Shown: in pieces, positions 2,262-64,000 of the stretch
How positions within the stretch are numbered: position 1 is the stretch's first letter
How the letters are laid out: the number at the start of each line of letters is the position of its first letter
Source: Hirudinaria manillensis
Lineage: Eukaryota; Annelida; Clitellata; Hirudinida; Hirudinidae
Assembly (NCBI GenBank): GCA_034509925.1
Contig: CM067527.1
Span: forward strand, 376,001-440,000
Length of the DNA stretch: 64,000 nucleotides
Reading direction: 5' to 3'
The notes under the pieces: model-generated
Database searches by the model: none
Seen by the model: only the letters and a program-made list of their open reading frames with translations
What the model was told of the DNA's origin: nothing
Program-made: the position numbers and the translations under genes

Positions 2262-5200
2262 ATGTCATCGGATATACAAGGTGTTTCGGGGGCCGTGAAC
2301 GAGGCCGCTTTGCGGGCCCTCATGGACAAAACTGGCTACCCAATAGAACAAAAGTCCGGCACCGGTCAGAGAATCTACGGCCCTCCGCCGCCGGGCCATC
2401 CGCTAAGAGATGCCGGCCAGCCGGGCCGTGGATGCGAAGTCTTTGTCGGCAAGCTGCCTAGGGACTGCTTCGAGGATGAACTGGTACCGGTCTTGGAGAG
2501 ATGTGGTTCCCTGTACGAGGTCAGGATGATGATGGATTTCACCGGAAGCAACAGGGGCTTCTGCTTTGCCACCTTCGGCGATCCTGAGTGCGCCAGAAGG
2601 GCCACGCGCGAGCTCAACAACTTTGAAATCAGACCCGGCTGTCACATCGGAGTCTGTCTGAGCGTGGACAACTGTCGCCTCTTCTTGGGAGGCATACCTC
2701 GTGACAAGCAGCGTCAGCACATCTTGGAGGCCATCTCGAAGCTCGTCTCCGACGTCAAGGACGTCATAGTCAAGCCGGACCCCAAGGAGAAGCACAAGAA
2801 CAGAGGATTTGCTTTCGTCGAGTTTTATTCCCATCATTCTGCCGCTATGGCCAGGAGAAAGCTGGCAGTCAAGAAGGTGCGCATGTGGGATCAGGAAATT
2901 GCCGTCGACTGGGCCGAACCAGAGCCAGAAATCGATAAGGAGATCATGGACAAGGTAGGACCAATTTAGTTCTGTGTTGACTTTATTTTCTAAGTAACTC
3001 TTTATCAAAATTTATGTAGTAGCACGATTGAGTTTTGATTGAAATTGCCTGGTAGCGTGGTGAGAGACATAGCCAGGGTCTCTTGAAAGCTCACGGGTAA
3101 GTCTCGAAAAAAAAAAGACAGATCAATCGATAGATGTTTACTTTAAGGTGCTAGGATACCTCTATATGCGAAGGCGGCTCTTGGAAGGCATGCAAATGAT
3201 AGGCAAACAAATTCACTGTTGACTTTGTCTCCTACACAGACTCTTGTCGAAGTATTGGTTTCATTGAGACAAGTAGGAATTCGTAGCGAGTCAAAATCAC
3301 ATCATATATACAGACATGTTAATAATAATATTATTATTAACAATGTAAATCTGGCTATTTGCAAACACCTTGGGCAAAGGCGTCACAATATAATCCTAAT
3401 AACGGAATACTTTTAGGAATACTTCTGAACATAAGTAAGCACAACGACGTTTCTAAGTGCAATCTTCTGAGTGCAACACCATCGGTGCATAGTATTTAGT
3501 TATTTACTGTGAATAAATTTTGTATATTCGTAAAAGCACACAAAAAAATATATATATATATATAAGAATAAACGGTCATGTCTCGATTCGTCTCGTAGAG
3601 AGCCGAGCGAGACTGTCACATCGGCCTTTGTACTGCCTTATCATCTCCATCGTCTGCAGAGCTAACGATTTCTGATTATTAAAGTCCGATTTAAATGTCC
3701 CCTGGCATTCTCTAGTCTAAACTTTGGTCCAAAACCGGGGTGGCAGAGGAGCTCTTTATTATTCTCATTGTCCTGGACTGGGCATTGTTTGATGTTGGCT
3801 GGCTTTGATTGTTCGAATTGAAATTCTTTCTAGTGGAATGGATCGGATTGAAAATTTCATTTAGGAGCCCAACTCATAAGCTGCCCGTCTGGAACATGAT
3901 GCAGTCGGTTGCATCACGACGTTTAGTAATTACGATGATTAGTAATTATTCTGCTCAACTCCAAGATTTAACTTTCGTTGCTCAATTTAGCAAATAATCG
4001 TCTTTGTTTGATGAATAACATAATTATAATCGTTACGTAATGTTATTAATAATTAATATAAATCACAACAAAACAATCATCCCGAAATAGGTCAAAGTGC
4101 TCTACTTCTACAACCTCACTCTCAGCACGACAGAGCAAGCCATCGAAAAGCTCTGCGTCGAGCTCTTGGGCAAGAACGGCGTGGTGGAAAGGGTCAGAAA
4201 GTTGAAGGACTTTGCCTTCGTCCACTTCAAAGAGAGGGAGGATGCCCTCAAGATCATGGAGGAGATGGACGGTTAGATTTTAATTAGAACAATTTGCAAG
4301 CAATGAACGAAACAAAACAAAAATGACGTCGATGAACGCATCTATCGACATTGTCCTGTGCTAACTGCTTTTTACTTTGACTGTTTAGGCAAAAATTTTG
4401 ATGGCTCGGCCATAAAAATCACCCTGGCCAAACCAGCAGAAAAGAAACCCCAACTGAAGGCACCTCAGCCAATAGCAGGGCCGGTAATGTGAACTTTTTT
4501 CTTATTGGTTACTTTTAATCTTGCTAGCCCCGAGATTTAAAACAAATAATCGTACCGACTTGCTATCAAAGTTATCAAGATCAGCTATCAAAATTAATGA
4601 TAATTAACTTCTCATTAGAATCGTAAATAGTTTTAATTCTTCATTGAAAGCTTCCATCGGACATTTTGCACAATAGTCGCAGCTACTTCTCTATATATCT
4701 CGCTTTCGTCATCATCATCGTCGTCGTCGTCGTATTCATCATCATGGTATGGCGATTACATACTTGGTGTAACCGTAAGAAGAAAAACATCGGATCGATA
4801 TCACCTACCCTGGTCTGAGTTTTCATAGCCCGGGGTCAAATATGAATTGGGAATCTGTCTAGAAAGTTGCTATGTGTCGTTTCAAATTGTGAATTCGCCC
4901 CTTGCGGCTACTACCGTCTGCTACACCATAATTATAATCATTGCTATCATTCGACTATCGACATCGCTATCAGCATCGTTTCTGCTTTTCGCACATTTTA
5001 TTATAGGCGTGCTTGTGCCGTCCTACCTTGATTGCCACTTGCCAGGTAGTCAAAGGCAGACAGAGTCCTTGAGGAAGAAGGAAACATTCCTGCATACTTG
5101 CTGTGTTTAATTGGGGATGTTTTTGACACATACTGCAGTGTCGTTTTATGGCATTCTTTCGAAAAGTTTCAAATTAGTAATTCCAAACGAGAAGTGTGAG

Positions 5201-12244: not shown

Positions 12245-15200
12245 CTAATCCCAGGTCGTGCACCCCCCTCCGATGGCCTGACCGCTGTTGATGGTCTGTT
12301 CCATGATGCTGTTCTTCCATATGGTAGGAACCTCCTTGAACTCACCTTCCAAGATCAATCTAGAAAAATTTGAATAGCTTTTAAAAATGAAATGTTAAAA
12401 TTATGCTGCCTCACTGCAACAGCAAATAATTCAAATAATACTTTATTATTAGGAATTAGAATTTAATTAAGATTTTTATTACGCAACCTGATATTGGTTC
12501 TCCATGGTTCCCTGCTCAGGTTCTTTTCCCTCGAGTTGTACACGAAGGTCGCCTCGGGTCCGAACATCTCCTGCCCTCCGGATCCGAGTCTGGTATTTAT
12601 CGTTTCCACTCCTGCTACTTTGGCACCTGCGGCAATTAAAGGGATACGTCTCAACTTGTTAACTTGCAATTCTGCATGCATAAAAGCATGTTTAAAGGTC
12701 TTCTTCTAGAATTTTCTAGGATTTCTGTTTTCTGGATTTGATTTTATGAGTAACATTTGATATTAAACCAAAAAAAATGATAAAATTACAGCATGTTTAG
12801 ACAGCGACGATCCAGTAACACGTTTAATTAATTTTCTTCCTAAACTAGGGAGTTGTTTAAATCGGATTTTAATGTAAAATTCCGAGAAGAAAGACGAAAT
12901 CAACCATTTTGAACAAACCAGAAAAGACGATCCAAGAGTTTATCTTATCCTCGAGCTGTCTCAAGTCCTCATAGATGCCATCCGGTGAGACGGACTCCTG
13001 GTCATCGTTCGACGTGCCCATGACCGGCCTCTTGAGGGGACTCGGTGCAAAGAACTTGTAGAAGAATTTCTTTCCCCCGTCCCCGAAGAAATCCGAGCCC
13101 CCCAGGTTGGGGGAGGAGGTCGAGGAGGGCTGGTAGTAGACGATCCTCAGGATCTGGAAGTACTCCGTCTTCTGACCCGAGAGGCTCCCGTAGGCGCTGC
13201 CGTGCTCGCACCTGGCGCACCTGTCCCAGAGTATCATCGACTGAGTGTCCGTGTCTGATGAATATTAATGGATGTTTACATGTAATGAGGGGGTAGATAT
13301 TACTTTAAATTGATGACGATGATAATAATAATGATGATAATTTTAATATATTATTTTAAAGTATTTAAAAAAAAAGAGAAATTCCCCCATGTTGTTTCAG
13401 AACCTTTCTTGATCTTGACGAAGACACTCTGAGCGTTGATGAACTTCAGCCTCGGATTCGTGAACAGGAATCTCGAAGCCTTTCGCCAGAGGTCAGAGTA
13501 GGTCTCGTAGCCCTGACTGTGGGGGGTCCTGTTGTCCTGGGTTGGAATGAAATCTCTGACGGCTGCAACAATCGATGATTGTTTTGTAATTCGTGTCACT
13601 CCATGCAAAGTTTCTTTGCATTATCACAAGCATTTATACTTTTTATTCTAATGCACTCATGTTATATATTATATATCATATTGTATATTCTCATGTATAT
13701 ATATATGAAATATAATGGCTCTGATTAAATAGATTTAATATTTGCTCGAACTAAGTAATTTAATTCAAAACTCAAAAACAGAATATAAAAAAATAATAAT
13801 AATAACATCAATAATACTCAAATGGCACCAACCAATGTCCATATGCTTCATATCGTCAGAACTTTCCTTCTTGTACGTGCAGAGGATCCTGACGAAGGAG
13901 GTGTAGTCACGCGACTTTTCCGGTTGCTCGAACCAAACGCAGGTGTCAGGATCGGAGACGTCGTTCAGGAGATCCAACGTCTCCAGGCGAACTATCTTTC
14001 CTGTCGGAACGAGAGAACGAAACGGAAGGCATTAAACGAGTATTCCTCCAGGCATGGTGGTGTCGATCCAATGAAGATTGGGATTATGAAAATAAATGTG
14101 CTTTTGTTTTATTTTATTAATTTAAACAATAAAATTAATTGTAACAATAATGATGATGATGATGATGATGATGATCAGGTGAAATTTTGAATATCTAATC
14201 GTCAGTCGTCTCCAATAAATGGGGTACCAGTTAAGCAAACATTCTCGACAAAACTCAGCTGCAAAGACTTTTTATGGATTTTTTTTATTATTGAACTGCC
14301 AATTCCCCCAGCTGTCAAAAAGCTGATGTTTACACTGCATAACCATGGCAACTTTTGACATTATTATTGTTATTATTATTTTCATTATTACTGTTGTCAT
14401 CATCATCAATGTCATTACTAATATCATTATTATTGCCATCATCATCATCATCATCGTCATCACCATCATTAGTCTCAATCTTATTACTGATGACCTTACA
14501 ACTGAGATTGTGTTATCTTACAAATAATTCCTGGAAGCATGTTGAAATAAGATATAAAAATTTAACTAATTCAGTGTGTAATGAGGACAGACTGAACAGA
14601 TAACATGCAAAGCACAAAGATAAGGTTGCAAAGCACAGAGTTGAAGCAAGCAGCTGACATTTTACATTTTAATACTGAATTCATAATTGGCAACCCACAC
14701 TGCAGAATAATGCAAAGTATACTTGTATTACAGCAGCCAAACTCAATTAATGATCAATAAACTGCAATCATCATCATCGTCATCACTACCATCACCATCA
14801 TCATTATCATCATCACAACACATTCTGCTACCTGAGAAATTCTTCTTGAAGACATCGGCATTGACCTTATTCAATAGGGACGTGAACAGCGGTTCCGCTT
14901 TCGACTCGAAGGTGTAATTGACGTAGCCAAGCTTGAAGGGCCCCGGGCAGTTGTTTTTGTCGTAGAAGTGCTCATCATATATGAAGTGCCAAACCCTAAT
15001 AATAATAATAATAATAATAATTATTACTCATATTATTATTATAATTATTATTATTATAAATAACAATTATTATAGGTATTATCAAAGATAAATTGACCGT
15101 AAATTAACAGTAAACAATCACCTGAGCCCTCTGACGACTTTGGTCTTCCTGTCCGTAGACATGCTTTTGACCATGACGCCTGCGTCGGTGAAGACGGGTT

Positions 15201-17496
15201 TGTCGACCGAGAACCAAGTCACGGTTTCGCAGGAGAAGATGAGGCACTGAGGGTTGTCTATGGACCACTGGTTGGCTTTTTCCACTAAGGTCCTTTTTGA
15301 GAAAGAGAATTAACATCACGATAAACAGATAAAGGGTTAGGGATTAACTTGTTTATTACTTATTTATTTCTCAATTCATTTCTCAGAAATTAAAATTTCT
15401 CAGGAAATTGAAGCAGTAAAGAAAAAAAATAAGCAATGTACAAATTATCTCTCAAATTACAAAATCCAGATGAAGAGGGTGAAAGACGTTTGGGCAAAGT
15501 GAAAGATGGACAAAGAGAAATAGGAGGATGAAACCAAATGCAGAACTTTGGTTGGAGATGATGATGATTATGATGATGATTTTTGACATAAAAGCAACAA
15601 CTGAAGTATGAATCATCAGAGGCACTGCGCACAATTGCTTCACCAAGAGTGAGATAAGCAGAAGAGACAGAGACAGCTGAGCACACCAAGCCTCTTTTCC
15701 AGATGAGTAAATCAAAATTCTTTGGAAGGAGTTATGACGGTAATAAAATTGTTGCATTGTTCCAAGCATAATTGGTTACTGAATAATTTCCAAATGCAAG
15801 TTGTGCCAATTTTTTTTTTAAATATTCAATAATAAAGTTCATTTCCTGGATCGATTTTCAATTATTTCTAGAAAAAAACATTTATAAATATAAAAAAAAC
15901 ACAAAGAGGAAGCCCACAAGAGAACTATTAAGGTTAAAGGTCACAATACAAGTCTCTGAGTCATTGATAGGTTTCCATCTAACCCTGTATATATATGCAG
16001 CCAGTGCATTGGATAGAAACACATAGGAGGCCAGCATAAATGCCAGCGATTAATGCAAACACTGCTTTCAACTGGAGTGAGGGAAAGTTTGGATGAGAAA
16101 AACAAACATTTAAGCCATTTGACAGCCTGACTCAGAATCCAAAAAAAAAAAACGAGCTAAGCCAAAAATAAATTAGAAAAAATGATGTGTATAGTTGCAA
16201 AATGTAATTAAAACCATGCTACCCAGGGCTAATTCGAGACATCCCCACTAATTGGTGCCAATTGAAAGTATGACTTTGTACGTTAAAAAATATTCCAAGT
16301 AAAACCTATATCCATTTTTTTGTGAAGAGAAAGGAGAATTTTTGTTATTATTTTAAATTTCATAAATTATGAACCCCCTGAACTGTTTATTCTGAAAGAA
16401 ATCCACTCATTGGCAGAGTCATTATTCTTAGAAAGTGATGATGACGATGATTTGAATGAAAAGACCATCAAAGAACACAATGGCAACTCTGCACAACTGG
16501 CCCACTGTTTTATTTAGGCCAGGAAATAACTCCAGATGTGTTGAAAACATCTGATATGATAATATATAATTAAATTAACCATAAAAGTGACTCTCTTATC
16601 TGTCAACTTGGAATAACACTTAAAGTTATCACTCAATTATAAAAAAAAATGCTTGGCCTTAACAAAGTAAAAAAATAAAATAACAACGTCACAATTATTC
16701 ATTAAATTCTACACTGAGGAACTCACGAAAACTTTTCATAGTCATCATCTTTTTTAGACTTTACTTGAGCGGGCATGAAATCCACATGTCTCAGCTTCCA
16801 ATGAGAAGAACTGTTGTTCATGTGATCATCTGTATGAGCTCCATAATGATCATCTGATGGATAGGAGGGACTGCTCACGTGAGGTGAGTGATGGATTGAA
16901 GTGACAGATGGTCCGGGAAAGACTGGCACGCCAAAGAGCTTTTTCTCAAACCCTGTCGAGAGACGATGAGGAAATCTGTTGTTGTTCATGTCTCTCACAT
17001 CAGAAAGTATCAGGAATGTTAGGTTTATTCTTTACAACTGAAAAGTAAAAAACGTGCAAAAAAAACTATTCAAGTAACAAAGTAACAGGCAAAGCTCTGG
17101 CGAAATCTCTCAGATCTGATAAAAAATCCCCAACGCCTAGAGTGTAGGTGCAAAGTTCAACAACTTCGTGCTACTTAAGTAGTTCTATTAACTAGTAAAG
17201 GTAAAATAAGCAGTTTGACGTAGTTCATTTTTCCGAGAATGGCTAGTGCTAAACAAATCAGACTTATAAAAGGACCAACTAGAAAATGCAAATCGACCTT
17301 ACGTATACCAACTTTAAACTGTGATTTCTAGAAGCGTACAAACCTGTTTTCTTTCGGAAGATTCTACGAAGCCTCGCGCGTTAACAAACCACACCATGCA
17401 GACTAAAACCAGCCACAACAGTGCTAACCTTTGCTGCACTCAAAAGTATCACTCTCAAATGCAAATAACAATGAAGTCTGACGACAGCACCTCCAT
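12245..17496 (-). CDS. Secreted protein of unknown family with four diverged copies of one domain
   Basis: Exons in transcript order: 17496-17491 (ATG GAG), 17433-17344, one beginning between 16989 and about 16940 and ending at 16727, 15292-15122, 14995-14832, 14000-13863, 13562-13404, 13254-12919, 12626-12488 and 12359-12245. From 16727 to the stop all phases agree. The first two exons give a strong signal peptide (MEQRLALLWLVLVCMVWF then VNARG), about 520 residues in total. I do not recognise the family. Four segments share a pattern of a beta-strand-like E/Q-T/S-V/L/I core followed by an aromatic strand and an RGLRVWHF-like strand: CETVTW with RGLRVW, LETLDL with FVRILCTY, AQSVFV with FQILRIVYY, and VETINTR with TNIRLILE. 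Cysteines are spread evenly and the protein ends GGGCTTWD. The join of the signal-peptide exon to the next exon is unresolved, because the best acceptors do not match the phase. Confidence 0.72.
15334..15343 (+). repeat. Short TTAGGG-like motif
   Basis: GGGTTAGGGA in an intron of the unknown secreted-protein gene. It is one of several isolated telomere-like motifs in this window (also at 17745, 27623, 27651, 32511 and 60137). Confidence 0.5.
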
Positions 17497-21451: not shown

Positions 21452-24400
21452 ATGGAAAAACTCTGCTTTGGGTGGCTGACCAAGTCCCCGCCGGAGCACA
21501 AGACTCAGAGACTTTTCCCAGCCGTAAACATTTATATGAATTATTCAATATAATGTTTTCAATCAATTTGAATTAATCACCCGATGCAATTGGAAATAAA
21601 TAATAGTTTTCTCGATAAACAATATACAGAAATGGAGACGAAGATATTTCGTGCTTTACACTCCACCTGCCTCTACGACATTGCCTGGACGTACCTGCAA
21701 CGCGATTTTAGATTATTATTCCAACGAGAGGATGGTCAGAAAGAGGGGCTCTATTGATCTTGAGAGGTGCCATTCAATCATCACAAACTTCTACTCAACC
21801 TCCCAAAACAAGAACATTTTCATAATGAAGACTGTACACAAGAACCAAGAGAGAGATTATCAGTTGGCCTGTGACACCAAGGAAGAGATGGAAGAATGGG
21901 TCTACAATTTGTGCTATGTTGTTGGCTTAAACAGAACAGGTTAGTTGATCTTAGTCTTGAATGTATCATGAATGTATTGGGAAGAGTCCAAAATACTCTT
22001 TCAGATGGCTAGCTCAATTACATGTATACATGTCTCTTCAATAAAAGTGTTTTCTCACTAAATCCAGATTTTAGGTGCCTAACACCAACCAAAATGTCAC
22101 CAGCCAGCATACCTCCCCAAGTGGAAACAGTTCAAAGACCACTCATTCCTGCTCAAAGCACCCAGCAAAAAAAGAGTGATTATTTTGACCTAAAGGACTG
22201 CGAAGCCGGTCATCATGACAAAAAAGACGCAATTGAGGCAGTGCTCTCATGCATGAAGGACGTAGACAGGATTCAGGTCTATCAGTCTCCGAGTTCTTTG
22301 GAGAGGAGGAAGATCGACAGCGAAGGATCGAGCATCCGTACAGATTCCACTGAATTCCAGTTGCCTGTGAATCCAGAAGACGTTTATAACTTTCCAAGGA
22401 TTCACAGTCGAGTCTCGAGTGATGAGTACAAAATGCCCAAAATCTGGCCAAATTCGAACTGTCGTGACTCCGCCTCTTCGGGATTGGAAGAGGGTTTCGC
22501 GAGAGAAAGTAGGATCTTTGTTTTCGAAATGGCCTCGTTAACTTTGGAATTTTAATTGCATTTGTATTACCTCCTAGGGGTTTTTCCAGATGGCATGACA
22601 AAGCTATTTTTTTGTCATCAATCCTTCTTGAAATTTAGTTTTTAATTTCGTTTAGACTTCAGGTCTCCTTCTTCGTCTTCGACTTCATCGACTGCATTCA
22701 ACAACGACTACGACGTTCCTCCTCCCAAACCTCACGTGACGTCGGCGCACGACTACACCAACACGACCTACGACGGCGCAAAGTCTTTCGTTCAAACGTT
22801 GCCGAACGAGGTTAGTCAGAAACCCTCCCTGTCAAAATCAGACTACGTACTTGGCATTGCATGTTATGGTTCACTGAGTGCAGGATGGGAAAGGGTCCCA
22901 TGATGTTGGCATTATTGAAAGTTATCGAATAATAATTTTTAATTTGTTGACTCTTCCACCGAGCAATTTTCTTTTGCACTCTTTGAGGCAAATAGGTTGC
23001 TTGATTAAATTTTTTTTTGTTTTCCATCAACATTTCTGTCAAAAAAGGTCGATTAACTGAGTGAATAATGGCTCAGTAATGGACATGTTCAAGGATTAGT
23101 TCAAAAGGAAGTCCTTATTACATAAAATTCAGCCCATCTGGTACACAATAGGAATTCGACATTTGAATTTTTCTTCGTGAAAATTCTTTAAATTTTTCCC
23201 AAGCCCACCAAATTCTGTTTCAAAATCTGTGCTGCTCTTTGAAAAATTAAATTAATCGTCTCCATCTCCATCCTGCAATGAATGGACTGTCGTCTGCCTC
23301 GAGACGTGACCTGATCATGTTTAAAAGCTGAGATAAGAAAAGAAACATTGAAAAACTGTATTTATTTTGTGTTCATAAATTTCTCAATTCATCCTCTGAG
23401 TCTGAGTTCGAACAGTCATCGATGGGAAAAACTCGGTGGGGAAACGACAATCAAGCGACCCTCATTATCTGCACGAATAATGGTTGCGACGTCGTGCTTT
23501 TGTCATCAGCATCACCAGGGAATGAGTGATAGTCTTATGAAAGAGTAGGCCAATTATGTCGATGAATGATTGCTAAATAGGAAGATGTTTGGATCATTAC
23601 TAATTTGCAGATGAATATTTTAAGGAATATAGGAACTTTATAATATAGGTACTTTATAATATAGGAACTTTATAATATAGTATATAAATATAGTATATAA
23701 TATAGGTACTTTATAATATAGTATATATATATATAATATAGTATATAAATATAGTATATAATATAAATTTCTTTTTGATCTGTAAAGCTTTATTATCCCT
23801 CAATTTCTCATGCTGTTGACATTGATATTCAAAATATTTCCTGTTTAAACCTAATTATGATGTTAATCCATCGATATACAAACGAAAATAACTTAGCTTA
23901 GATTAGAACCTATTTTTCCTTAAAGAATGTCATCTTGACTTTGTTAATGATTGAATGTCAGAAATTTACTTAGGATAAATCAGTGGAAAAACAATGGCTT
24001 GATAATAATAACATAAACAAATTATAGGCTAATAATAATAATAATAATAGCAACTTTAAAATAATATTTTAACAGGTTCCTTTGCCTCTGAAGGTCAAGA
24101 CCAGCAAGAAATGTAAGAAGGGTGGAGTGATTTATTAGTCTTTGTTTGATCAATAATGTCAATACTAAGGTGATATCATGCATTTGAACATCACACCTAG
24201 TATTAGTTATCAGTACAGCCTAATTGATCACCAATGATTAATGCCAATAATGATCTTTAATTGACATACCTCTGAATATGCAGATGGCGTCTCCCAAAAT
24301 GGCTCTTCATCATCTGCAGATGGTTTTAAAAGGTCAGATTTTTTCTCTGGCAGTCGTAGAATCGGCTCACATCCCATTCGTCTCCTCATTTGCATACGAC

Positions 24401-40276: not shown

Positions 40277-40730
40277 CTTTATTCGTAGATTATAGAAAAT
40301 CCCGATGACAGTCTATTATATTACAAACCAAATTTTATAGTCCGTTCGTAGCGATATACGAGTAATAACAAAGATTTTAAATAATAAAAGAATGTTTATC
40401 GATACAATAGATAAATTTGTAAAAGACAACTAAAATAAAAAAAATCTACAAATTCGCTAGATAAAAAAAATGCAATCAATTAGCAACATGATCTACATTT
40501 TTCGTCTCCCGCTAATATTTTAACAGTTGGTGTCTCGAAAATCTCATGAAGTTGCTTAGCACCGTCGTCAGCTATCAAAACAAATTTGTAGTGTAAGCAT
40601 TACATAAAGTTATTTATATTTAATTAACTGATTTAAATTTAAAGATTACAAATAAAAAATATAAATCTGCTTTGAGATTATATTAGCTCACGATTAGAAC
40701 CCCCTTTTTAATTTGTATGATGTATCCCTA
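40277..40730. promoter_or_regulatory. Divergent region of FRA10AC1 and the ZPBP-like gene
   Basis: 454 AT-rich bases between opposed start codons. No TATA box stands out. It is expected to hold both promoters. Confidence 0.4.
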
Positions 40731-42918
40731 ATGCTTTCGATTACATCGGCTCTAGTCTTATTAATAATAGTACCAACCCTTTGCGAAACGAATCCAGATG
40801 AAACGGAGTTACTTGATGCCGAGATCAAAGAAAAAGTTACTAAAGACACGAATCTTCTAGACAAGGATATTGAGAATTCACTGGCAAAGTTCAATTTTAC
40901 TGTTCTCGAAGCGAAAAGGTCCGTCTGCGCTAGATTCGGCGAAACAATTTACGTCCATTGCTTCCCTGAAACATTAGATTCAAGTCAGAGATCCGATCTG
41001 GTGGCCATAATATCGCAGGGATTCTGGAAAACTGAATTTGGAGGAACCATTCCCGAGGGAGCGGTCGAACCTCGTAGGTACGCCATAGACGACCAATTGG
41101 TTCTCCAGGTTAGATTTGGCTTCGTGAACTCTCGCGTTGATAATTATATTTGGACTCTAAAGCCAAATAAAATAACATTTACACTCTCCCTAATCTCTTT
41201 AAAGATTAAAAACTCGAAGGCAGAAGATGCTGGTCTTCTGACTTGCACCATGATCTTGAGAAAGTCCAACGCTTGGAAGACCAGTTCAGTCCTGGTTTCG
41301 ATCTACGACGTTCCGAGACTCGGCCTCGAGTTTCCATTCGTCATCGGGGTTAAAGAGAGCTGCTCCGGCTCGGCCAAGACTGTGGTGGAAGGAAGTCTGA
41401 ACGTCTTCCAGGAAATGTTCTGTGGAAATCGAGTTGATGGAAAGCCTATGCCAGGTTGAGGATAACTTTGTTGTGGTGGGGAGATCGGAGAGCCCAGGAA
41501 AAGAAAATAGAGTAACAGAGGGAACTTTTGATTTATTAATTGGGTGCTTCTTAAATTCAAGAGGGAATTTTGATGAAGAGCGATTGAAAGGTTGAAAGAA
41601 ACAAAATGAAATTAGATTGATTTTCATTAACAAATATAAAAAATTGTAACATATGTATAGTCTTGAACGATGAAACCTAATAATTGACAAAATGGCCAAT
41701 TTCAAATTCATGACCCACATCCTCACCAGCTTGTCAATATCAAGTACGAGAAGTCGTCTGCCATCGGGCAACTTCCGCCAAAGTTGGCGGGAACATCAGT
41801 TCCTACTTGGAAGTCAGGGTGAGGAAAACTCCCCACTCAAAATTCAAGTCACCCCCCTGTTCTGACGACTGCACGAGGGGCTACTATGTGATGCACATCA
41901 ACTCCAATCTGGAGCAAATCATCAGGTCATTGAATAATCAATAGAATAATTAATTTGAATATTAATTTCTCAACACTAGTATTAGGACAGGGATGTAAAC
42001 TAAAGGGTGATGTGTCTTAAACTCTATTAATGTATATAATTACTGTTAGTAATACTTCTTCAATCTTCGTCATGAAGTTCCTATTACATATATATATATG
42101 ATGTATGTAGTATATTTACTAAAATATTATTTATTTCATAATATTTGTATTAATATTATTATTATATTTAATACCAGCATATCCAGATCATTCTACCAGA
42201 GCCTGCCACATGTTGATTCCATAACCTCATTCCTGCCCACGAAACTGCTCACCATGAGGAGCTACTTTCACATTTGTCCTGCTGGTTTTGGGCCCAAGTC
42301 GACGTGCAACGATGGCACAATCCTCTGCCTGCCCTGTGATCCGGGTTCCTACGCCAAACCCACGACTGGCAAATGCGAGAAATGTCCTGTTGACACGTAT
42401 CAGGATCATCGGGGAAGCGATGTTAATAGACTTATTAATTAATAGAAATTAATAATTGTCTTGAATTGAGTTAACTTATTAATAATAAAAATCAATTAAG
42501 AGCTGCTTCTCAAAAATTTAAATTTTAAAATGCCACTTTTAATAAATTCCCTTATAGCAATTAAATTCCTTTACGGATAGCAGTCACCAATCGCTCATCC
42601 ATCTGCTAATCTTTCCAGTCCTGCCTTCCATGTCCTCCAGGCAAGGTTACCGGCACAAATATCGGAACCACTCAATCCTCATTTTGTTATGAAGAAATCA
42701 AAGACCCATCGAGCGCAAAGCTTCTAGTTTTCGGCGCCATCCTCTGGTGCATCGTGGCGCTACTCCTGTGCTTCAGCGGGGTCAAGATCTTGCTTGACGG
42801 ATGCTGTCCTACTGGAGCATCGAGAAGGCTAATCAATGAAATAGAAGAGGACATGGACGAAGAGCATCCTGAGGAAACGACGAGCAGCCCGTTAGCCAGG
42901 ACTAGGGGCACGGTTTAA
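40731..42918 (+). CDS. ZPBP-like Ig-domain protein with cysteine-rich region and transmembrane anchor
   Basis: Exons 40731-41108, 41205-41454, 41730-41925, 42178-42421 and 42619-42918 give 455 residues. The ATG at 40731 starts a clear signal peptide (MLSITSALVLLIIVPTLCE). An Ig-like domain follows, with cysteines in YVHCFPE and DAGLLTC, then a conserved-looking block (IYDVPRLGLEF, CSGSAKTVVEGSL, FCG, VVCHR). Next is a GCC2/GCC3-type cysteine-rich segment (CPAGFGPKSTC, CLPCDPGSY, CEKCPVDTY, CLPCPPGK), a transmembrane helix (LLVFGAILWCIVALLLCF) and an acidic cytoplasmic tail of about 50 residues. The order Ig, bridging cysteine block and CPxGxG...CxPCxPGS resembles zona-pellucida-binding protein (ZPBP/Sp38), an acrosomal sperm protein. 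ZPBP lacks the second cysteine module and the membrane anchor. The 96-base intron 41109-41204 is in frame and open, so retention would insert 32 residues between Ig strands. Confidence 0.62.
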
Positions 42919-49790: not shown

Positions 49791-51368
49791 ATGGCGGACC
49801 CGGGCGTGCTGTCTTCTTCGCCGTCATCCGATGTTTCCGAGCCGAAGCAAAAACTTTATAGAGACAAGGAGGAATGGAAGGACGTAGTTCCTGTTCCACA
49901 AGATGACGGTCCATTCGAAGTTGTCCAAATAGCCTATTCGGACGAGTTCAGAGATGTTTTTGATTACTTCAGGGCCATTCTTAAGTCAAAGGAGGTTTCT
50001 GAACGCGCTTTCCAGCTGACGACCGATGCTGCTGCCCTTAACCCTGCCAACTACACTGTCTGGTCATACAGGCGAATGCTTCTCAAGAACCTTGACAAGG
50101 ATTTGAGAGAGGAGTTAAATTACATCACTAAAGTCATAGAGGAACATCCTAAGAATTACCAGGTGGATTTTAATGCCGAATTTCGTGATTGCCATGAAAT
50201 CTTTCTGTGATGGAAATTATTTGGTTCAATTTTGAGGAATTAGAACTTATATTTATGGTAATTACATCACATTCATTGAGATACAAAAAACTCATGCCAT
50301 CGATTCTCAATAATCTTAATCTTTTTTATCGTCAACAATATACCCCAGAAATGTATTTTCAAAAATAGTTTTATTATAAAAAAAACCACCTTCAAGGTCT
50401 GGTATCACAGAGTGATGGTCATAACGTGGCTAGCGGACGCCTCCGAAGAGCTCCAATTCACTGCGTCGATTCTCAAAATGGATGCAAAAAACTACCATGC
50501 CTGGCAGCACAGACAGTGGGTACTCAAGAACTTTGAAATCTGGGACTCCGAACTCTCCTACTTGGACATGCTCCTGGCAGAAGACGTCAGGAACAATTCT
50601 GCCTGGAACCATCGTTACTTTGTCATCAGCAACACCACTGGTTTCACAGATGAAGTATTGGATAGGTGAGGCATTCCATAGAATTGGATCTTGTTGGTTT
50701 TCAAAAGGGATTGTAGTTTGTCACCTCAAATTATATAAACCTGGGTTTAATGGCCCCTTTGCATGTGACATATTTTGGAAGCATACAAGAAGCCCTTACA
50801 TTGGCCAAACATTGGATCCCTGTGGTATTAGTATTTGTTACTTATGCATGGTATTACAATATACTTGTTTCTAATACTTTTAACTCAAAATTCAGGTGTT
50901 CCCTGAACAAGTAAAAATATGATTTCTATTATATTTGATTTACTTGACACCTTAAAGCCCTTTTTGTCCACTTTTAAAACCCATAAACAAATCTCCAGGG
51001 AGTTCGAGTACACGCAGAGGCAGATCAAGAAGGTGCCGCACAACGAGAGCGCCTGGAACTATCTGAGGGGCATCCTGTCGGACAAGAACAAGTACGCCTA
51101 TCCGGAACTCATGCCTTTCTGCGAGGGCCTGTACATGAGCAACGTTCGCTCCTTCTACCTCATGGGTTTCATGATAGAATGCTGGCAGGATGGCCTCGAA
51201 AATGCCAAGAACGATTCGGAGAAGGCCGAACTGCTCCAGAAGGCCGTGGGCTTCTGCGAGAGCCTCGCGGAAGAGTTCGACACGATCAGGGTGGAGTATT
51301 GGAAATACGTGTCGAGGTCGCTGTCTTTCCAGCATTCCAACGTCACCGTCGTCGAAGTGGACTCTTGA
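49791..51368 (+). CDS. FNTA: Protein farnesyl/geranylgeranyltransferase type I alpha subunit
   Basis: Three exons, 49791-50162, 50397-50665 and 50999-51368, total 337 codons (336 residues; human 379). The protein is the shared alpha subunit that pairs with FNTB or PGGT1B to attach prenyl groups to CaaX cysteines, for example of Ras and Rho proteins. Five prenyltransferase-alpha repeats are visible through their Trp-x-x-Arg type cores: [47 protein letters not shown] and [12 protein letters not shown]. The start at 49791 ([11 protein letters not shown]) fits the short unstructured N-ter. In-frame sequence upstream is open but unlike the family. AATAAA lies at 51496-51501. It is convergent with GEMIN8, whose stop is 163 bases away. 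Confidence 0.96.
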
Positions 51369-52952: not shown

Positions 52953-54500
52953 TTACCATCTTCTTTCATTGTGTCCTCTGCGGTTTTCTTCATATCTATT
53001 CCTATTAAGATATCTGTCGTCTGTCTGGTAGTCACCGTCAATCATATTGTAAATCCGATTTTCGGTTCTTAAATCTCGAGGAAAGTGATTTGATCTGCTA
53101 TCAAAATCATCATGATGTTCGGGATATCTGCCACGTCTGTCATGATTTCTTTCCCTCCTGTCGAAACAATCTCTGCGGTCCATCCCATGGAATTCCCGGT
53201 ATTGATGATCAATAGTTTGTCTCCTGTCGTCTCGATTCTTACAATCCTCAAGGAATGATCTTTCCAGAGTTGCTATGGCTTCTTCAGGTGTTCTGAAAGA
53301 GTTGTTTATCTTCCTTCTTTTCTGTTCCTTCCTTTCCTGAGAGTGGTCTCTCTCCTTCGGTCTTTTGTTAGACTTTTGCATTACAATTTTTCTAGTCTCG
53401 TGTTCTTCCTTGTTTCGTGTCGCTTCCTTTTTGTTTGCGAAGTGGCTTTTTGGTTTATTCGTGTCTCTAGATTTTAAATTTGCCTCTATGACGGGCGATT
53501 TACTTTTTTTGTTAGATTCTTCGATGCTAATCTGTGAAGTTTGTGCATTTTCTTCAATTAATGGCGTGTTCTCGCTGAGCATTGGCTCATCCGGCATAGG
53601 ATCACATGATTGAGGAACACTTTCTGGCTCCATCGTTTGCTTTGCATTGTTCACGTCAGCAGAATCAACTATTTTTTGGAGGAAAGACTGTTCGTTCTCC
53701 TTTCTCTTCTTACAATGGAGAAGCCAACTTTGTTCCGTAAAGGAATAGTTGAAAAACTTTGACGGGTCAACTCCTGGCTTCGTCCAGGGTTTGTCCTCAT
53801 CGGCGACTGTGCTGAGGTCGACGCTGTAGACATCAATTATTCCTGGATTGCCCTTATTTCCCGGGTCAACCAAATGTAAAATTTTCTGCCATGCGCTTGT
53901 GAAATGAATGGACAGATCAGCGGAACTTTCCTCGGTCGAGTTTACATCCGCAGATGCTTCGATCTTTCCGACTGTGATGTCTATGCCATCTTCGTCGTCT
54001 ACGTTGTTTTTAATCATTTCTCCGTTATTCGTTTCTGATGCCATTTCAATGACTGGAACCTCAGATTCAACTATGGCCGCCAGGCCGCAACATTCATCAT
54101 TTGTGTTTACGATGTTCTTGAGTGCCTCTTCTTCGTCATTGGCATCAACATCCGGGAAAGGCTGCTCGGCCGAGGAAAGTAGATCAGATCCGGATTTTTC
54201 CACTGAGAGTTCATCTTGTCCGTCGTCTTCTTCTTCCGCGGCGTCTTGAAGAGACTTCTCAGGCAAAATAGGACTTGCATATTTCACATCTTGGTCAGAT
54301 TCTCTCGTCGGTGCTATGCCACAGCTCTCATCATTCGAGTTTAGAAGAGCTTCTTCTTCTTGTTCTTCATTTATTCTACTTTGAACAGAATCTCCTTCCG
54401 AATTTTCAGAAAGGCAACACTCATCAATGCCCTCAACATTCTTTGGTTTGTCTTCAGGGGCAGTCACTGTTTGATCCTGAATTTCTGATTCCGAGCTCAT
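52953..54500 (-). CDS. FIP1L1-like: FIP1-like pre-mRNA 3'-end processing factor, intronless
   Basis: One uninterrupted 515-codon frame from ATG at 54500 to TAA at 52953. The signature is the Fip1 motif at residues about 222-265 (VYSVDLS, DKPWTKPGVDPSKFFNYSF, then SWLLHCKKRKENEQ), which in other species contacts poly(A) polymerase and CPSF30/WDR33 within the cleavage and polyadenylation complex. The N-terminal 200 residues are acidic and include a repeated segment (48-68 and 123-146: EEEAL, NDE(S/C)CG, ES). The C-ter from about 390 is rich in Arg, Asp, Glu and His, as in FIP1L1. Human FIP1L1 (594 residues) has many introns, whereas this copy has none although almost all neighbours do. A retroposed origin or complete intron loss is inferred. 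Whether another FIP1 gene exists in the genome is unknown. Confidence 0.85.
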   Translation of the reverse strand: MSSESEIQDQTVTAPEDKPKNVEGIDECCLSENSEGDSVQSRINEEQEEEALLNSNDESCGIAPTRESDQDVKYASPILPEKSLQDAAEEEDDGQDELSVEKSGSDLLSSAEQPFPDVDANDEEEALKNIVNTNDECCGLAAIVESEVPVIEMASETNNGEMIKNNVDDEDGIDITVGKIEASADVNSTEESSADLSIHFTSAWQKILHLVDPGNKGNPGIIDVYSVDLSTVADEDKPWTKPGVDPSKFFNYSFTEQSWLLHCKKRKENEQSFLQKIVDSADVNNAKQTMEPESVPQSCDPMPDEPMLSENTPLIEENAQTSQISIEESNKKSKSPVIEANLKSRDTNKPKSHFANKKEATRNKEEHETRKIVMQKSNKRPKERDHSQERKEQKRRKINNSFRTPEEAIATLERSFLEDCKNRDDRRQTIDHQYREFHGMDRRDCFDRRERNHDRRGRYPEHHDDFDSRSNHFPRDLRTENRIYNMIDGDYQTDDRYLNRNRYEENRRGHNERRW

Positions 54501-55100
54501 TTTAATATTTAAAAGTTAATGAATTTCAAATAATTTGGTCAGGTGATTTTTAAAGGATTGAGCTTTTGTTAACTGTACATACTTCAGAAACTTTTTGGCA
54601 GTCGCCGTTCAGATGCGAAATGAAAAAAGATCTTAAATATTAACTGATTACTTTAATTAATATATTACGATTTAATTAAAATAATATTTTTATTAATTAG
54701 TTTTTAATATGGATTTTTACAAGACAAAATTTGATTAAATATTAAACATTTACATTAATTAAATAAAAAAAAAATTTAACGTCATATACAAAAATGTTTT
54801 GGCTATTTTTGATCTCGATGTTTTCAATTTCCGTAATTACACTGCTATTTTGATGAATGAAAATGGGTAATGAATGGTGAAGAATACAAATTTCATTTTT
54901 GGCAATAGCCTCTCATTGAAAAAAAAAACAAAATAAAAAACTTGCTAACTTTAAATCAAAAATAAATATATTATAAAATATTTTTAGAATTTAAAAATGT
55001 ATATATTTTAATACATCTTTTAAATTGTGAAGTCAATCATAACACAACCTATTATCGCTGCGGGTTCAAATTTCTAGAACATTGGCTAGCTGGTCCGAAA
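54501..55100. promoter_or_regulatory. Divergent region of the FIP1-like gene and FAM32A
   Basis: 600 bases between opposed start codons, very AT-rich between 54640 and 55020. It is presumed to carry both promoters; no specific site is compelling. Confidence 0.4.
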
Positions 55101-56380: not shown

Positions 56381-58140
56381 TCAAACCTCCTCAGTTTTTC
56401 CCAGAATTACTTCCAAACTTTTGAATAGTTGGTTGAAAATCTCCTCCCTGTCCTTTCCTCGAGGAGCGTTCGCGCATTCCGAGACGAGACTTCCGATGCC
56501 GTAAAGACCTTCGACGTCTTCCGGGACGTCCCTGAGTAGTCCCACGTTTTCCGGGCGCTTCCCGGCCGTCGCGGGCGAAAAGATGTTCCGACAGACGGCG
56601 TACAGGTTGTGGTCGGAGTAGTGTCTCGAGCAGAACCGGTCCGAGTCGCTGCTCCACGCTTCATCGCTCTTGCACGTCAAGTCCGAACGACTCGCGACTT
56701 CGCACGTCGTGAAGTTCCTGACCAGCGGAACGTTCCAGCCGTCTTTTTGGTCCTGCTCCAACTGCCACCTGTCGACGACGAGAAGGTCTTTGGGACTCGT
56801 GTACAGGACGTTCTTCGTGTCTCTGTCGACGTGGAATGCGTCAAAGTCCACTCTGAGCATGTAAATGCCGTACAGGAGCTTGTTGTGGGTCAGCTTGCTT
56901 GCGATCGTCATCACGGACAGTGCCAGTCTGGCAGATAAAAATGCGATTATTAAATACTTCTGCAATAGTTTAACCAGATTTATCAACTTAAAATGATATG
57001 ATTTAGAATAATTTATGAGATATTTAGCTTATATTTAGATTGAACCATGTGGCACTCTTCACCAAGCCTTAAACTTACCAATGGTTCAAAATATAACATA
57101 ATAATAAAACCGATTAATTATGTGGATACTTCATATCATTAAACAAATCTCTAATGGCATCCTGCATTTAAACATTGAAAACAAAATCTTCAAACAACTA
57201 ACTCCGCCCTGACCAGCCACGGCTCGTCCAGGAAATCTCCGAGCGGGTCTCCCGGATTCTCGTAGACCACGACTCTGCCGCATGACCCGAGATATTCTGG
57301 AAAAGGCCAGCCTTCCTGCTTCGGAAAGGTTTGGTAAACTATAGGCTCCTGACTATTCCAGAGTGTCAAAACCATTTGGATCCTTTCACGTGCGGACATG
57401 TCGATGGCGTCCAATGTTTCCGTGTATCGAAACTGCATGCTGTTGACGAGTCTTTCCGACGGACACGTGGTCATCGGGGACTTGCCCTGGACTGAGTTTT
57501 GAATCCACTTCGAGCCCGACAGAGGGAAGATCGACTGGGCGGCTTTAGCGACGTCACATTCCTGGGGCATTTTTGCCTGAATAAAATGAAATGGTTTAGT
57601 AAAGAATGGGGTAGTAATTTAACTGTCAAACCAATAAAAGAACAATTTTAATGAATCATCATTCACTCATTAATCAGACATCAGTCAATTAGAAATTACT
57701 TTTAAGCAAATCAGTTTTTCCCACTGTTTGATGTGACGTGGGTGTCCCAATTTAGTCAGCACAACATCCTTTCCATCTGATGACTTGCCGTAGTACTTGA
57801 TTATAGCGCTGTCGAAGATGCGTACGAGATTAGAGGCACTCGTCAGCGCAATCTCGCCGTTTTGCAACTTATCGCAAGCTTTAAATCCGTAACAAGCCGG
57901 GCATTTGTGGCTCTCCAAGAAAGACGAGCTTCTACCAGCGATGAAGACCGAGTTCAGTAACAAAATAAGCAGACCAAAACTGCCAAGAACAAGCAAAGCA
58001 AATGCGATTATTTGATCGAAGAGCGGTAGGCGAAAGAAGCGTCGTAAAGACAATTTCAGAGCAACCAATATCCTGCTCTTCATAGTTCTTATTAACCGCC
58101 CGCAATCAAATCTATATTTATTTCTATGGTAATCATGCAT
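56381..58140 (-). CDS. DIPK2: Divergent protein kinase domain 2 family protein
   Basis: Three exons, 58140-57700, 57576-57203 and 56927-56381, give 453 residues (human DIPK2A/C3orf58 430, DIPK2B 433). The start MHDYHRNKYRF precedes a second Met (MKSR at 58083) and a hydrophobic anchor (FALLVLGSFGLLILLL), so it is a type II Golgi/ER or secreted protein like its relatives. The lumenal part has CPACYGFKAC, WPFPEYLGSCGRVVV, LLVVDRWQLEQDQ, CSRHYSDHNLYAVCRNIFS and a final VSECANAP, all family landmarks rich in conserved cysteines. DIPK2A is reported as a secreted survival factor and Golgi protein and is associated with autism in human; kinase activity is doubtful. TTTGTAG directly precedes the first ATG. 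Confidence 0.93.
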
Positions 58141-58831: not shown

Positions 58832-61148
58832 TCATCTAAATCCCAGCTTCTTCTTTTCCTTTTCCTTCCTCTTAACATTTTCCACCTGCCTGTCCTGCCA
58901 GCAACTCTTCCTCAACTTGATTGGCCTGTTGCCAACATATTTTCCTGGAAAAGAATGTTAAATTTTCTGAATTAAACTAGAATGACAAATCCTATCCTAG
59001 GAAGGTTTTTGAAATAAAAAACTACAGGCTAACAAAGTCAATGACAAGTCAAAAGTATTTGTCCTTATGACTTGAATGTCTAAGACATCCTAATGTGGAT
59101 GTCAACAGCAGAACTTCTTGCATTGCAAACCCAAGACTAAAACCTGGTGAGAAAAACTCTCAATATTTGGACAAAACAAACATAGTCCAAAACATAATAC
59201 AGCAACATAATCTTATCCAAAGAGAACAAGTCAAATATTCTAACAAGAGAGAATCTTCTGAAGGAACGAACAAAAAATCATTCTTTGGGCTTAGAACCAA
59301 CCGTTCAATTCTCTCATGGCCTTCATGAAATCTCCTGGGTCCTTGAAACTGGCAAAGCCGTAGCCCTTGGTCTTGTTGGTCCGTTTGTCCCTGATGACCC
59401 TGGCCTTCTGAAAGGAGGGGTACTTGGCAAAGACCCGGTTCAGGACGTCGTCCGTCACCTCATTTCCCAGATCTCCGCAGAAAAGCCTAAAGTCGTCTGC
59501 ATCGTCGTCGTTGTTTGATTTGTATTTTTTATTGAATTGTTAATTAAATTCAAAATCTTAATCTGTCAAAGTTTGGGTACCATTTTAAGTCCAAAGTCTG
59601 TTGTAGCAAGTATAGTGTTTTGGAAACAATAACATATTTCTGAACACATTAACACAACAACAAGGGAGAATGGCAACAAACATCACTAGCAAGCTACCAC
59701 AACAACAACAACAACATTATCAACCTGGATCCCACTCAGTCAGTGACTGGTCCTCCCATATAGTTCCAGCAGCCATCCTCATGTACTTCCTTTTCCTGTC
59801 CTTCTTGTCTTTCTTTCCCTCGGATGTCGAAGGCATAGAAGAATTTTTGTTCGACTCCTTGGGCTTCGACGGCTGAGACTTTGTGACCTTCTTTTCTGGT
59901 TCTTTTGGGGGCTGAAATTTCAGCAGAAAAAGTGGCAAAAACAAAAAAGTACTTTTGGAAAATGTGGTCGATGGAAAAAGAAATCACAGATAGTTAAACA
60001 AAATGGCAGAAATTAAATTGCTTTTTGTTTAAAAAAAAACAAACAAATCAAATAAACAAATATTTTACCTTCAAGACTCAATTTCTAAAATGATTTGTTC
60101 TAAAAATTAAATGTAGAATCACCTCCCTCTGATATCGGGGTTAGGGTTAGGGAACAACAAGTTCAACAAAAGCATACAAAATATAAAATAATAAAATAAA
60201 AGTCCGTACTACTCACAGGTGAGGCAACGGTGATGATCGCAGGTGGCGGCGCAGGTTTTTCTTCCTGCTTCGTCAAGACCCCCTCGGGCTGGTTCTTGAC
60301 GGGCGGCGCGGAGTACACGACCTTGGGGGCAGAAATCACGACCGTCGCCGACGACGACAAAGACGACTGAGTCTTCTGGCCGGACGCGACCTCGCCCTGC
60401 TTCGAAGGAATCTGAGGGGGCTGCGGTCCGAACATGGGCAGGTGGTGCGGCCTTGGAGGAAAAGGCGTCTGACCGAAAGGCCTGACGTTCACCGAGAAGT
60501 TGCCCGGCATGGGCACCAGCGGGTGCATGGGCCGCGGAGGGGGTGGCATCGGTCGATTCTTCAGTTGGGGGGGAATGAACATGGGAGGAGGGTGAAATCC
60601 CACAGGAGGATGAGACGGTTGTATGCTCGTAGAGTCTGAAATGGTAGCAGATTCTTAATCGTTAAACACTTCGGTCTCACTTATTATTTTGGAGTGATTT
60701 TCAGAGGCATAGTTTGAATTTTTTTTTTCAATTCAATACTTTTGATGGATTTTACTATGAAAGACAATAAATGCAGTTAACCAGCTAACATCTCATGGAT
60801 GATCCACCATGACTGTTGGTTTGCAAAGGTGCTGCTGGAGGTATCTTCACCTCTGATCCAGTGCTTAGAATCTCCTCTTCAAATCTAGCAACAAATAAGT
60901 GAAAGCATGAGATGAATTCCACATTTTTTAAGCGAAAATGTATGAATTTTAAATTTTGTGCCCTACTAATTGTGTTAAATGATTGTTAATGTTAAATAAA
61001 CATTATTTTGAATAATTCATTTCTACCTTTCTATAGCTGATCAAAGCGATGACCAAATAAGGTTTCTAATTTTAACGATCGGAGGTGATATTAACCTATT
61101 CATTTCTTCTTCCATCTCTTTTAACCTGGTATCCGTTATGTCGGCCAT
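58832..61148 (-). CDS. RBM42: RNA-binding protein 42
   Basis: Six exons, 61148-61096, 60884-60790, 60635-60217, 59911-59725, 59496-59302 and 58944-58832, give 354 codons (353 residues; human 480). Human RBM42 is an hnRNP-K-interacting protein and a tri-snRNP component. The N-ter MADITDTRLKEMEEEMNRFE is a short helix as in the family. The middle is Pro/Met-rich (PPPMFIPPQLKNRPMPPPPR). Near the C-ter, WDPDDFRLFCGDLGNEV opens the single RRM, which has RVIRDKRTNKTKGYGFASF as RNP1 region and ends KYVGNRPIKLRKS. The Lys-rich tail closes the protein. The 194-codon middle and RRM exons match human residue for residue in long stretches. A telomere-like GGGGTTAGGGTTAGGG lies in the third intron at 60137-60152. 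Confidence 0.95.
60137..60152 (+). repeat. Telomere-like TTAGGG motif
   Basis: GGGGTTAGGGTTAGGG, two and a half perfect TTAGGG units, in an RBM42 intron. Similar short arrays are at 17745-17758, 27623-27635, 27651-27667 and 32511-32528. Confidence 0.7.
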
Positions 61149-62247: not shown

Positions 62248-64000
62248 TCACGAGAAGAAGCAATCGACCCGCGAACCATCACTCATCAAGTGGCGTCCGC
62301 CATTGCAAATCCTGGCGCTCTTGTTATCGTCAGCGCCGCCATCAACGGACCGGAAGTTGATAATCACGTGATCGCACGATGACGTCATCGTGTCACAATG
62401 GAGGGAGCTCTCTGCGAGTATGGAATTCTCGCTTCCCGGACTCGACGAAAGATTGGAACCACTACCGCTGCTGCTGATGATGCCGGGCTGATGCTGGCAT
62501 GCCGGCGATTGGCCGTCCGACTGACGATTGGTCTGGACACTTGGTTCTCCTCCGTCAGCGACGTCACTGGAAAGGGGCAATCCAGAGACTGTCTTCACTC
62601 CGGTTTCCTTGAGTCGCTTCTTTTGCTTCATCCGTCGATTCTGGAACCAAATCTTGACCTGAGTCTCGTTGAGGCCCAAGACCGAGGCAATCTCGATCCG
62701 ACGAGCCCGGGTCAAGTACTTGTTGAAGTGGAACTCCTTTTCCAGCTCCGTGAGTTGCTTGTTGGTGAAGTTGGTCCTGCCGAGATTGATGCAGTTATTC
62801 GCGTTGCTGACTGCCACCATGTTGCCGTGTTGTTGATGTTGCTGATGCTGTTGGTGTTGTTGGTGATGTTGTTGATGGTGATGGTGGTGGGAAGATTTTG
62901 GATTCAAATCCAGAGGCGAGTCGAAGCTGTTGACGTATTTCCCGTGTTGTTGCTGTTGTTGAAGGACTTGAGAGTCCAAACCGTTGCCGTAGTGCTGGAA
63001 GGAATAATGCTGACCTCTCTGGTAGATGTTGTTGCCGTTGTTGTAGAATTGACTGGAAGTGGCGGCAAAGTTCTGGGCAAACGCTGGAACGGACGGCATG
63101 GGTTGATGATCGAAATAGCCAGGAGAGTTGGAAAGCTTTTGACGTAGTGTCTGATCTGCAAGAATCATTTATGCATGGTTTTGATAATGATTACCACATT
63201 AAGCGTAAATAATTTCCGGTTTTACAAATTTTACAAAAAAATCGTGTCGAATCTAAATCTTCAATTAACTCACTACATTTTGGATTGTTCCTCTTTACCG
63301 TCAGCCATTTATAGGTGGTCATCTGATGCTTGAGAATCTCTGGAAGACTGCTGCTCCTGGGACTTGACAGGACAACCTGATTACCCTGGTCCACAGTACC
63401 ACCCTGACTCTGCTGGTTCAAAGGGGTTTGCTGAACCTTTTGTCGGTTGTACTCATTGAACTCGTTGTAGCCTTCGTAAAAAGGTTCACACTCCGGTTGG
63501 TACCACTCTCCACCTGTTCCGGAGTCGACGGAGAAACACTGAGACACGTAATCTACGCAACCTTCCAAGTTTTCCAAGTCCTGATAGTTTTGGAAAAGTT
63601 CAGGCGTCGGATGAGTATACAAGGACGTCTGGTGACCGAGCGCGTCCACACAGGAGCCCGGTTGACCGAGAGACTGAGGCGAGAGGGTACCGAAATTGGC
63701 CGGATTGGGATACTCGTAGGATGGATTCATTCCAGCCATTTCTGCGCTTTGGAAGCTGTAACTCGACTCGGTGTTGCTCGGCTTTGGAGAGACGAATTCG
63801 CAAGACGACGGCAACAAATTTCCGGCGACTTTCGCGTAAAATGAGTCTCCGCTCGACTCGCAATTGTCCCCGATCTTCGAGTGGAAACACGACTCTCGAT
63901 ATTCCTGGCTCGTCGACGGACGATTATGATTTAGACCGTGGTCGACTGGGCCGCAGTTATGACGGGCCGCTCCATCCGGGCCGCGGGGCCTATCGTAGAC
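62248..64000 (-). CDS. Hox1: Hox1 (labial-class) homeodomain protein, 5' end outside the window
   Basis: Exon 1 is open from the window edge at 64000 to 63274 and exon 2 runs from 63155 to 62248. The junction (TGT A|AT CAG) keeps the frame. The transcription factor patterns the anterior trunk or hindbrain-equivalent region. The hexapeptide region [10 protein letters not shown], just before the splice, is the labial-type PBX/Exd contact, with Leu replacing the usual Met. The homeodomain (about 62790-62605) reads [20 protein letters not shown], then [20 protein letters not shown] and [15 protein letters not shown], diagnostic of paralog group 1. Between them lies a His/Gln-rich run (62825-62895). 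The C-ter is Ser-rich. The start codon lies beyond 64000. Exon 1 has a Tyr/Asn/Pro-rich activation-type composition. Confidence 0.97.

Follow-up and report, generated by a model that had tools for sequence, protein, structure and literature searches.

The 64,000-nt window of the Hirudinaria manillensis genome analysed here (CM067527.1, positions 376,001-440,000; coordinates below count from window position 1) carries on its minus strand a predicted gene for a protein that, judged by its sequence, contains four homologous, diverged copies of one domain. The gene model has eight coding exons (16989-12245) that read as a single open frame of 504 codons, from an ATG at 16989 to a stop at 12245 (Table 1). 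All modelled exons have GT-AG borders; the acceptors used score between 1.6 and 3.8 and the donors between -2.0 and 2.7, two of the latter being weak. Identical borders are recovered from the protein itself by our purpose-written spliced aligner, which serves as a check of the aligner only. Three exon spans given in an earlier note on this DNA (15292-14832, 13562-12919 and 12626-12245) each fuse two exons of the present model, and a fourth, 14000-13863, should end at 13833. The part of the protein encoded by exon 1 has a counterpart in paralogs, where a similar WKLxxxDFxP segment and the same phase-2 border are found. Overall, the protein has few and scattered cysteines (eight), six N-glycosylation sequon positions and no strongly hydrophobic segment, the highest 19-residue Kyte-Doolittle mean being 0.94.

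The four copies (U1 to U4) were cut by hand at a domain length of 83-105 residues, and their genomic ends were derived manually from the exon table. When the window protein is taken alone, local alignment clearly relates U1 to U3 (z 7.5, with none of 2000 shuffles as high) and weakly relates U1 to U4 (z 3.1, 18 of 2000 shuffles as high). The remaining four of the six copy pairs are at chance level (z -1.5 to 0.7), and because of these a four-fold claim would not stand on the window protein alone. Profiles of nine rows per copy were taken from the window gene and its paralogs, the latter labelled below by contig (C1, C13 and so on). Compared profile against profile, the pairs U1-U3, U2-U3, U1-U4 and U1-U2 reach HH-suite probabilities of 98.2, 94.3, 91.2 and 82.4, respectively, and U3-U4 (45.1) and U2-U4 (38.1) are weak. 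For none of the six pairs does any of the 60 column shuffles equal the real profile score, and both reversed controls lie below the real score for every pair (7.7-14.4 versus 25.3-74.2). Removing the window row leaves six pair scores of 23.8-69.9, which still exceed control scores computed with that row included. Thus, the four-fold repetition proposed in the earlier note is borne out with nine-member profiles, all six pairs exceeding both kinds of control, though two do so weakly. In this comparison, the U4 rows are incomplete for C8, where the row is cut, and for C9, C10 and C13, where the second half is missing; the divergent and partial C4b was omitted from the unit profiles, the tree and alignment A2, and C13 was trimmed to U1-U2 in A2.

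Alignments A3 (23 units) and A7 (29 units, U4 excluded) show a common unit that consists of a DFxP-ending segment, an LVxxANxWL segment, an ETV or QSV segment, and a last R-L/I/V-R-L/V/I-W/Y/F segment. Alignment A3 omits the U1 rows of C4a and C13, four of the nine U2 rows, the U3 row of C13 and six of the nine U4 rows. Read by eye, these segments would form a strand, a helix, a strand and a strand, and the domain is probably of the alpha+beta type. AlphaFold was run on two contiguous single-exon fragments only, and both models, being of low trust, were judged unusable: the U1 fragment (57 aa; pLDDT 41.9, pTM 0.24) was modelled with one helix and two short strands, and the U3 fragment (52 aa; pLDDT 72.2, pTM 0.32) with two helices and no strand.

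Searching the assembly (23 contigs, 148.43 Mb) with the whole protein returned the window gene and one paralog, and further members were reached with pieces of the window and paralog sequences. Sixteen places are known (Table 1), representing at least 14 distinct and dispersed genes, mostly with the same introns; this count sets aside the C16 place, a likely duplicate, and C1:11.01M, the sequence of which was not read. The stretch C16:114704-114895 (L063) is nearly identical to C1:10863217-10863408 (L064), and the C16 member is probably the same gene as C1:10.86M, lying on a small duplicate scaffold of the assembly. Spliced profile alignment scored 116-209 at C7:3.52M, C16, C1:10.86M, C7:0.25M, C1:13.75M and C4:12.19M, compared with 38-66 on 13 control stretches of the window and 45-56 on five shuffled loci. 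Single-exon E-values were poor for C7:0.25M (0.14 and 0.088), for C4:12.19M (0.7 and 2.9) and for C1:13.75M (1.65 at the place read, 0.028 at a place 7 kb away), and these three were accepted because of their spliced scores and visible motif conservation. Two further candidates were dropped, C5:108k for having no spliced score above 60 and C1:1.12M at E 8.36. Taken together, the family appears to be old, and its members are dispersed in the leech genome.

Contrary to the suggestion that exon borders follow the repeats, six of the seven introns fall inside the copies as cut, and only one, at residue 256, lies on a copy border (U2/U3). Since six introns cut through copies, amplification of a single exon does not fit, and the exon duplication invoked in the earlier note is not borne out as stated. 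Within the window gene, the introns in the last strands of U1 and U4 match in position and phase, and those between helix and second strand of U2 and U4 share the same phase and precede the core E by six and seven residues. These coincidences suit an ancient duplication of a multi-exon unit rather than single-exon shuffling, in a supportive though not decisive way. Among ten gene models, the window gene's own included, the intron before the U1 helix (phase 2) is present in nine, the tenth, C4a, being without its first exon; the intron in the U1 last strand (phase 2) is present in all ten, that between the U2 helix and second strand (phase 1) in nine, that at the U2/U3 border (phase 1) in eight, and that after the U3 second strand (phase 1) in nine. 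The models have defects of their own: the first exons of C13 and C4b are of low complexity and doubtful, the U2 helix is missing from C1, and the stretch of C13 between U2 and U3 is uncertain.

In a maximum-likelihood tree of nine members, one split (support 100/98) separates the window gene, C8 and C10 from C1, C4a, C5, C9, C12 and C13; the window gene and C13 are the long rows in this tree. Only six matches to the segment PLFLRNVVGRQFKYRWLVLAISAFTCMAIIVVVSVVYSN are present in the 148-Mb genome at E up to 10, and every one lies just downstream of, and in the same orientation as, one of the six second-clade genes. Hydrophobicity reaches 2.78 and 3.04 in the two such tails scanned, versus the maximum of 0.94 in the window protein, and in the C1 member the hydrophobic run is followed by four residues and then a stop. 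By hydropathy scan and tail search, the window protein has no C-terminal hydrophobic segment, and the tail segment was not found in the window. Identity to the C1 tail is 55-88% in four of the five aligned tails, and the C13 tail is 54% identical to the query; the repeat exons of the same tail-bearing members are 32-55% identical to C1. The higher conservation of the tail than of the repeat exons points to a strong constraint on membrane placement. In tail anchors, basic residues lie on the cytosolic side, and the pattern found here would suit a C-terminal tail anchor that leaves the repeats in the cytosol. On the other side of the split, the paralogs nearest to the window gene, C8 and C10, have a PPPY motif in the hydrophilic part of their N-terminal open frames (L041 and L039).

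The view that the protein cannot be placed in a known family was supported: the libraries searched, which covered curated families, solved structures and phage, plasmid, viral and prokaryote sequences but no general collection of animal proteins, yielded no credible relative. Scans of Pfam, NCBIfam and PHROGs returned only weak single-member matches (best E 0.0086, 0.092 and 0.026, respectively), and a PDB sequence search with the single window protein was empty. PDB profile matches (Cry5B, MJ223, MotS, myosin VI and others) were judged to be chance, the best having E 0.0039 over 46 columns; later PDB profile searches reached at best E 0.4 and 0.17. The Delta-endotoxin (Cry5B) match covers those 46 columns in one copy only, with E 0.0039 and 0.0076 for the whole-protein profile and 2.3-8.3 for pooled units, and was rejected, as was DUF6678 (PF20383), matched by U1 of the window protein, one of 23 units, at E 0.0086 and 16.6 bits, below the cut-off of 24.5. 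Neither the genome nor the Pfam scans gave a match to Spore_Cse60 (PF10957), and DUF4476, the lophotrochin domain, was not among Pfam matches up to E 10. With the C5 paralog as query, phages gave no match and plasmids one weak place (E 0.3); viral contigs had no match to part of the C5 paralog or to the tail alignment. In prokaryote genomes, the 57-residue exon 2 fragment hit one Spirosoma place, which lies opposite a 275-aa open reading frame and has mainly the peptide VDKPVFTD in common, and was rejected. A published account of such a four-domain family was not found in the open-licence PMC literature.

Elsewhere in the window, a Hox gene at 62251-63168 (minus strand; Pfam Homeodomain, E 2.1e-23), which we take to be labial/Hox1-like, lies about 45 kb from the four-domain gene. 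Open frames at 40698-42915 (plus strand) begin with a hydrophobic stretch, continue through a cysteine-rich part and have another hydrophobic segment further on; they may together encode a single unnamed membrane protein, and their first piece (253 aa) has no Pfam match. Six other Pfam-type matches mark ordinary animal genes (Table 1). In the wider genome, antistasin-type domains form dense clusters at C2:1.72-1.78M and 3.29-3.65M, with at least 98 genome matches at E up to 0.01, which fits a leech; a tunicate origin was rejected, as neither a Ciona spliced leader nor cellulose synthase was matched.

Table 1. Predicted features of the window and places of the gene family in the assembly
Feature	Position	Strand	Remarks
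Coding exon 1	16989-16727	-	from ATG 16989: hydrophilic N-terminus, then copy 1 first strand; in-frame TAA upstream
Coding exon 2	15292-15122	-	copy 1: helix, ETV strand, most of last strand
Coding exon 3	14995-14832	-	copy 1, last part; copy 2, first strand and helix
Coding exon 4	14000-13833	-	copy 2, second to last strands; terminates at U2/U3 border
Coding exon 5	13562-13404	-	copy 3: first strand, helix, second strand; donor score -2.0
Coding exon 6	13254-12919	-	remainder of copy 3, linker; copy 4, first strand and helix
Coding exon 7	12626-12488	-	copy 4, ETI strand to middle of last strand; donor score -1.8
Coding exon 8	12359-12245	-	end of copy 4, C-terminus, stop; without membrane segment
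Copy 1 (U1)	16812-14974	-	residues 60-152; spans three exons
Copy 2 (U2)	14943-13864	-	residues 163-245; spans two exons
Copy 3 (U3)	13836-13127	-	residues 255-351; spans three exons
Copy 4 (U4)	13072-12338	-	residues 370-474; spans three exons
Hydrophobic open stretch	17439-17344	-	no start codon before core; probably 5' untranslated exon or non-coding
RRM match	2262-2966	+	ordinary animal gene
PH match	21600-21941	+	ordinary animal gene
Prenyltransferase alpha match	50280-50666	+	ordinary animal gene
Fip1 match	52956-54515	-	ordinary animal gene
FAM69-type kinase match	56384-57028	-	ordinary animal gene
RRM match	59294-59539	-	ordinary animal gene
Family places, first half	window gene, C1:57-62k, C1:10.86M, C1:11.01M, C1:13.75M, C4:1.19M, C4:12.19M, C5:5.46M		
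Family places, second half	C7:0.25M, C7:3.52M, C8:17-19k, C9:9.36M, C10:7.15M, C12:8.76M, C13:0.45M, C16:0.11M		

Our preferred interpretation is that the window gene would encode a soluble, most likely cytosolic protein, in which four tandem small domains stand behind a hydrophilic N-terminal tail and may together act as a multi-site binding scaffold for a protein or ligand. The sister-clade proteins would have this array tethered to the cytosolic side of a membrane through the C-terminal tail anchor; the window protein together with its closest paralogs C8 and C10, which have no tail, would represent the free form. The PPPY motif of C8 and C10 could recruit a WW-domain ubiquitin ligase. The window protein is probably intracellular; the full proposal of a cytosolic four-domain binding scaffold with soluble and membrane-tethered branches is tentative, and we would put its chance somewhat below even. 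With the same reserve, the locus can be read as belonging to an old annelid, possibly wider spiralian, four-domain family built on an undescribed domain, one clade of which gained or kept a strongly conserved C-terminal membrane tail and the other of which stayed soluble; this would be a system of cytosolic, membrane-tethered scaffolds with no counterpart in the families searched. Other annelids or molluscs probably have homologs.

Several points weigh against this interpretation. The splice models are the output of our own aligner, made without RNA, and in its last round, with the family profile and a noisy tail, the aligner picked a different join of exons 6 and 7. The model of the U3 fragment has a helix at a segment that we read by eye as a strand and so lends the strand reading no support. 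The PPPY motif is not in the window protein as modelled, we infer the splice joining the tail to U4 from position, and the C13 tail lies outside the region read. Moreover, the window member has the longest end branch of the nine (1.8), and the donors of its exons 5 and 7 are weak, both of which would also suit a decaying or pseudogene copy of the family; we consider this highly improbable, however, in view of the eight exons forming one open frame of 504 codons and of the five U1-U3 introns, each shared in place and phase by 8 to 10 of the 10 models, the window's included. Frame-keeping joins between an upstream hydrophobic stretch and exon 1 are a further difficulty, and they bear on whether the product is instead a secreted four-domain protein with a signal peptide on an upstream exon. 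The signal peptide originally placed at a start at 17496 was not confirmed: from that ATG, 13 codons are read before a first stop, and two more stops follow. The hydrophobic stretch at 17439-17344 does resemble a signal core, but its best-scoring join to exon 1 (donor 17344, 1.5; acceptor 17037, 3.6) brings a stop into frame, so that the stretch would be untranslated. Open, in-frame joins exist with lower sums, the best running from donor 17340 (0.2) to acceptor 16952 (3.7), and since accepted exons use donors down to -2.0, a weak donor alone excludes nothing; the six sequon positions likewise favour secretion. Nevertheless, in the four readable paralogs C1, C8, C9 and C12, those whose N-terminal frame is closed by a stop, no hydrophobic run is seen by eye after the first M. 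With the start closed, no strongly hydrophobic segment in the protein and predicted C-terminal membrane segments in the sister clade, a secreted or extracellular product is not supported and appears unlikely, and a soluble intracellular protein remains the reading we favour.

That reading is compatible with the domain being a strongly diverged member of a known strand-helix-strand-strand-strand fold, which we regard as an even chance. Small folds with this order of elements are common, and the order itself was judged by eye in A3 and A7; the candidates would be, for instance, cystatin-like or Cse60/DUF4177-like. No sequence match in PDB or Pfam speaks for such a relationship, although failures of this kind do not exclude a shared fold. 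The family might, on the other hand, be the leech form of a known spiralian-restricted gene. There is a precedent for unnamed proteins of this kind: according to PMC7441323, a screen yielding 37 spiralian-restricted genes included lophotrochin, a spiralian gene with DUF4476 (pfam14771), and trochin, which is expressed in ciliary bands and has no similarity to known domains. Lophotrochin is likewise spiralian and has an unnamed lineage-restricted motif (PMC7441323), but the Pfam scans gave no DUF4476 match in the leech family. Trochin resembles the leech family, with which it is compared here by description only, in being spiralian-restricted and without a known domain; the word 'repeat', however, is absent from the main text of PMC7441323, no large family was noted in its passages on trochin, and identity with a gene such as trochin seems to us the remotest of the explanations considered.

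This domain, for which Pfam has no match, is carried by at least 14 genes of a single animal genome, probably in four copies each, and represents a clear gap in domain catalogues. Unnamed families are common in invertebrate genomes; here, the apparent strong constraint on membrane placement makes the location and the partners of the proteins directly testable. Set beside known systems, the likeness to DUF6678 (PF20383) is confined to its weak match with U1 of the window protein. Spore_Cse60 (PF10957) is a small domain with a similar order of elements, and differs by the absent sequence match. The window protein, having no C-terminal hydrophobic segment, also differs from tail-anchored membrane proteins as that class is generally known; its six paralogs of the sister clade would resemble them in a predicted C-terminal hydrophobic segment with basic residues before it and few residues after.

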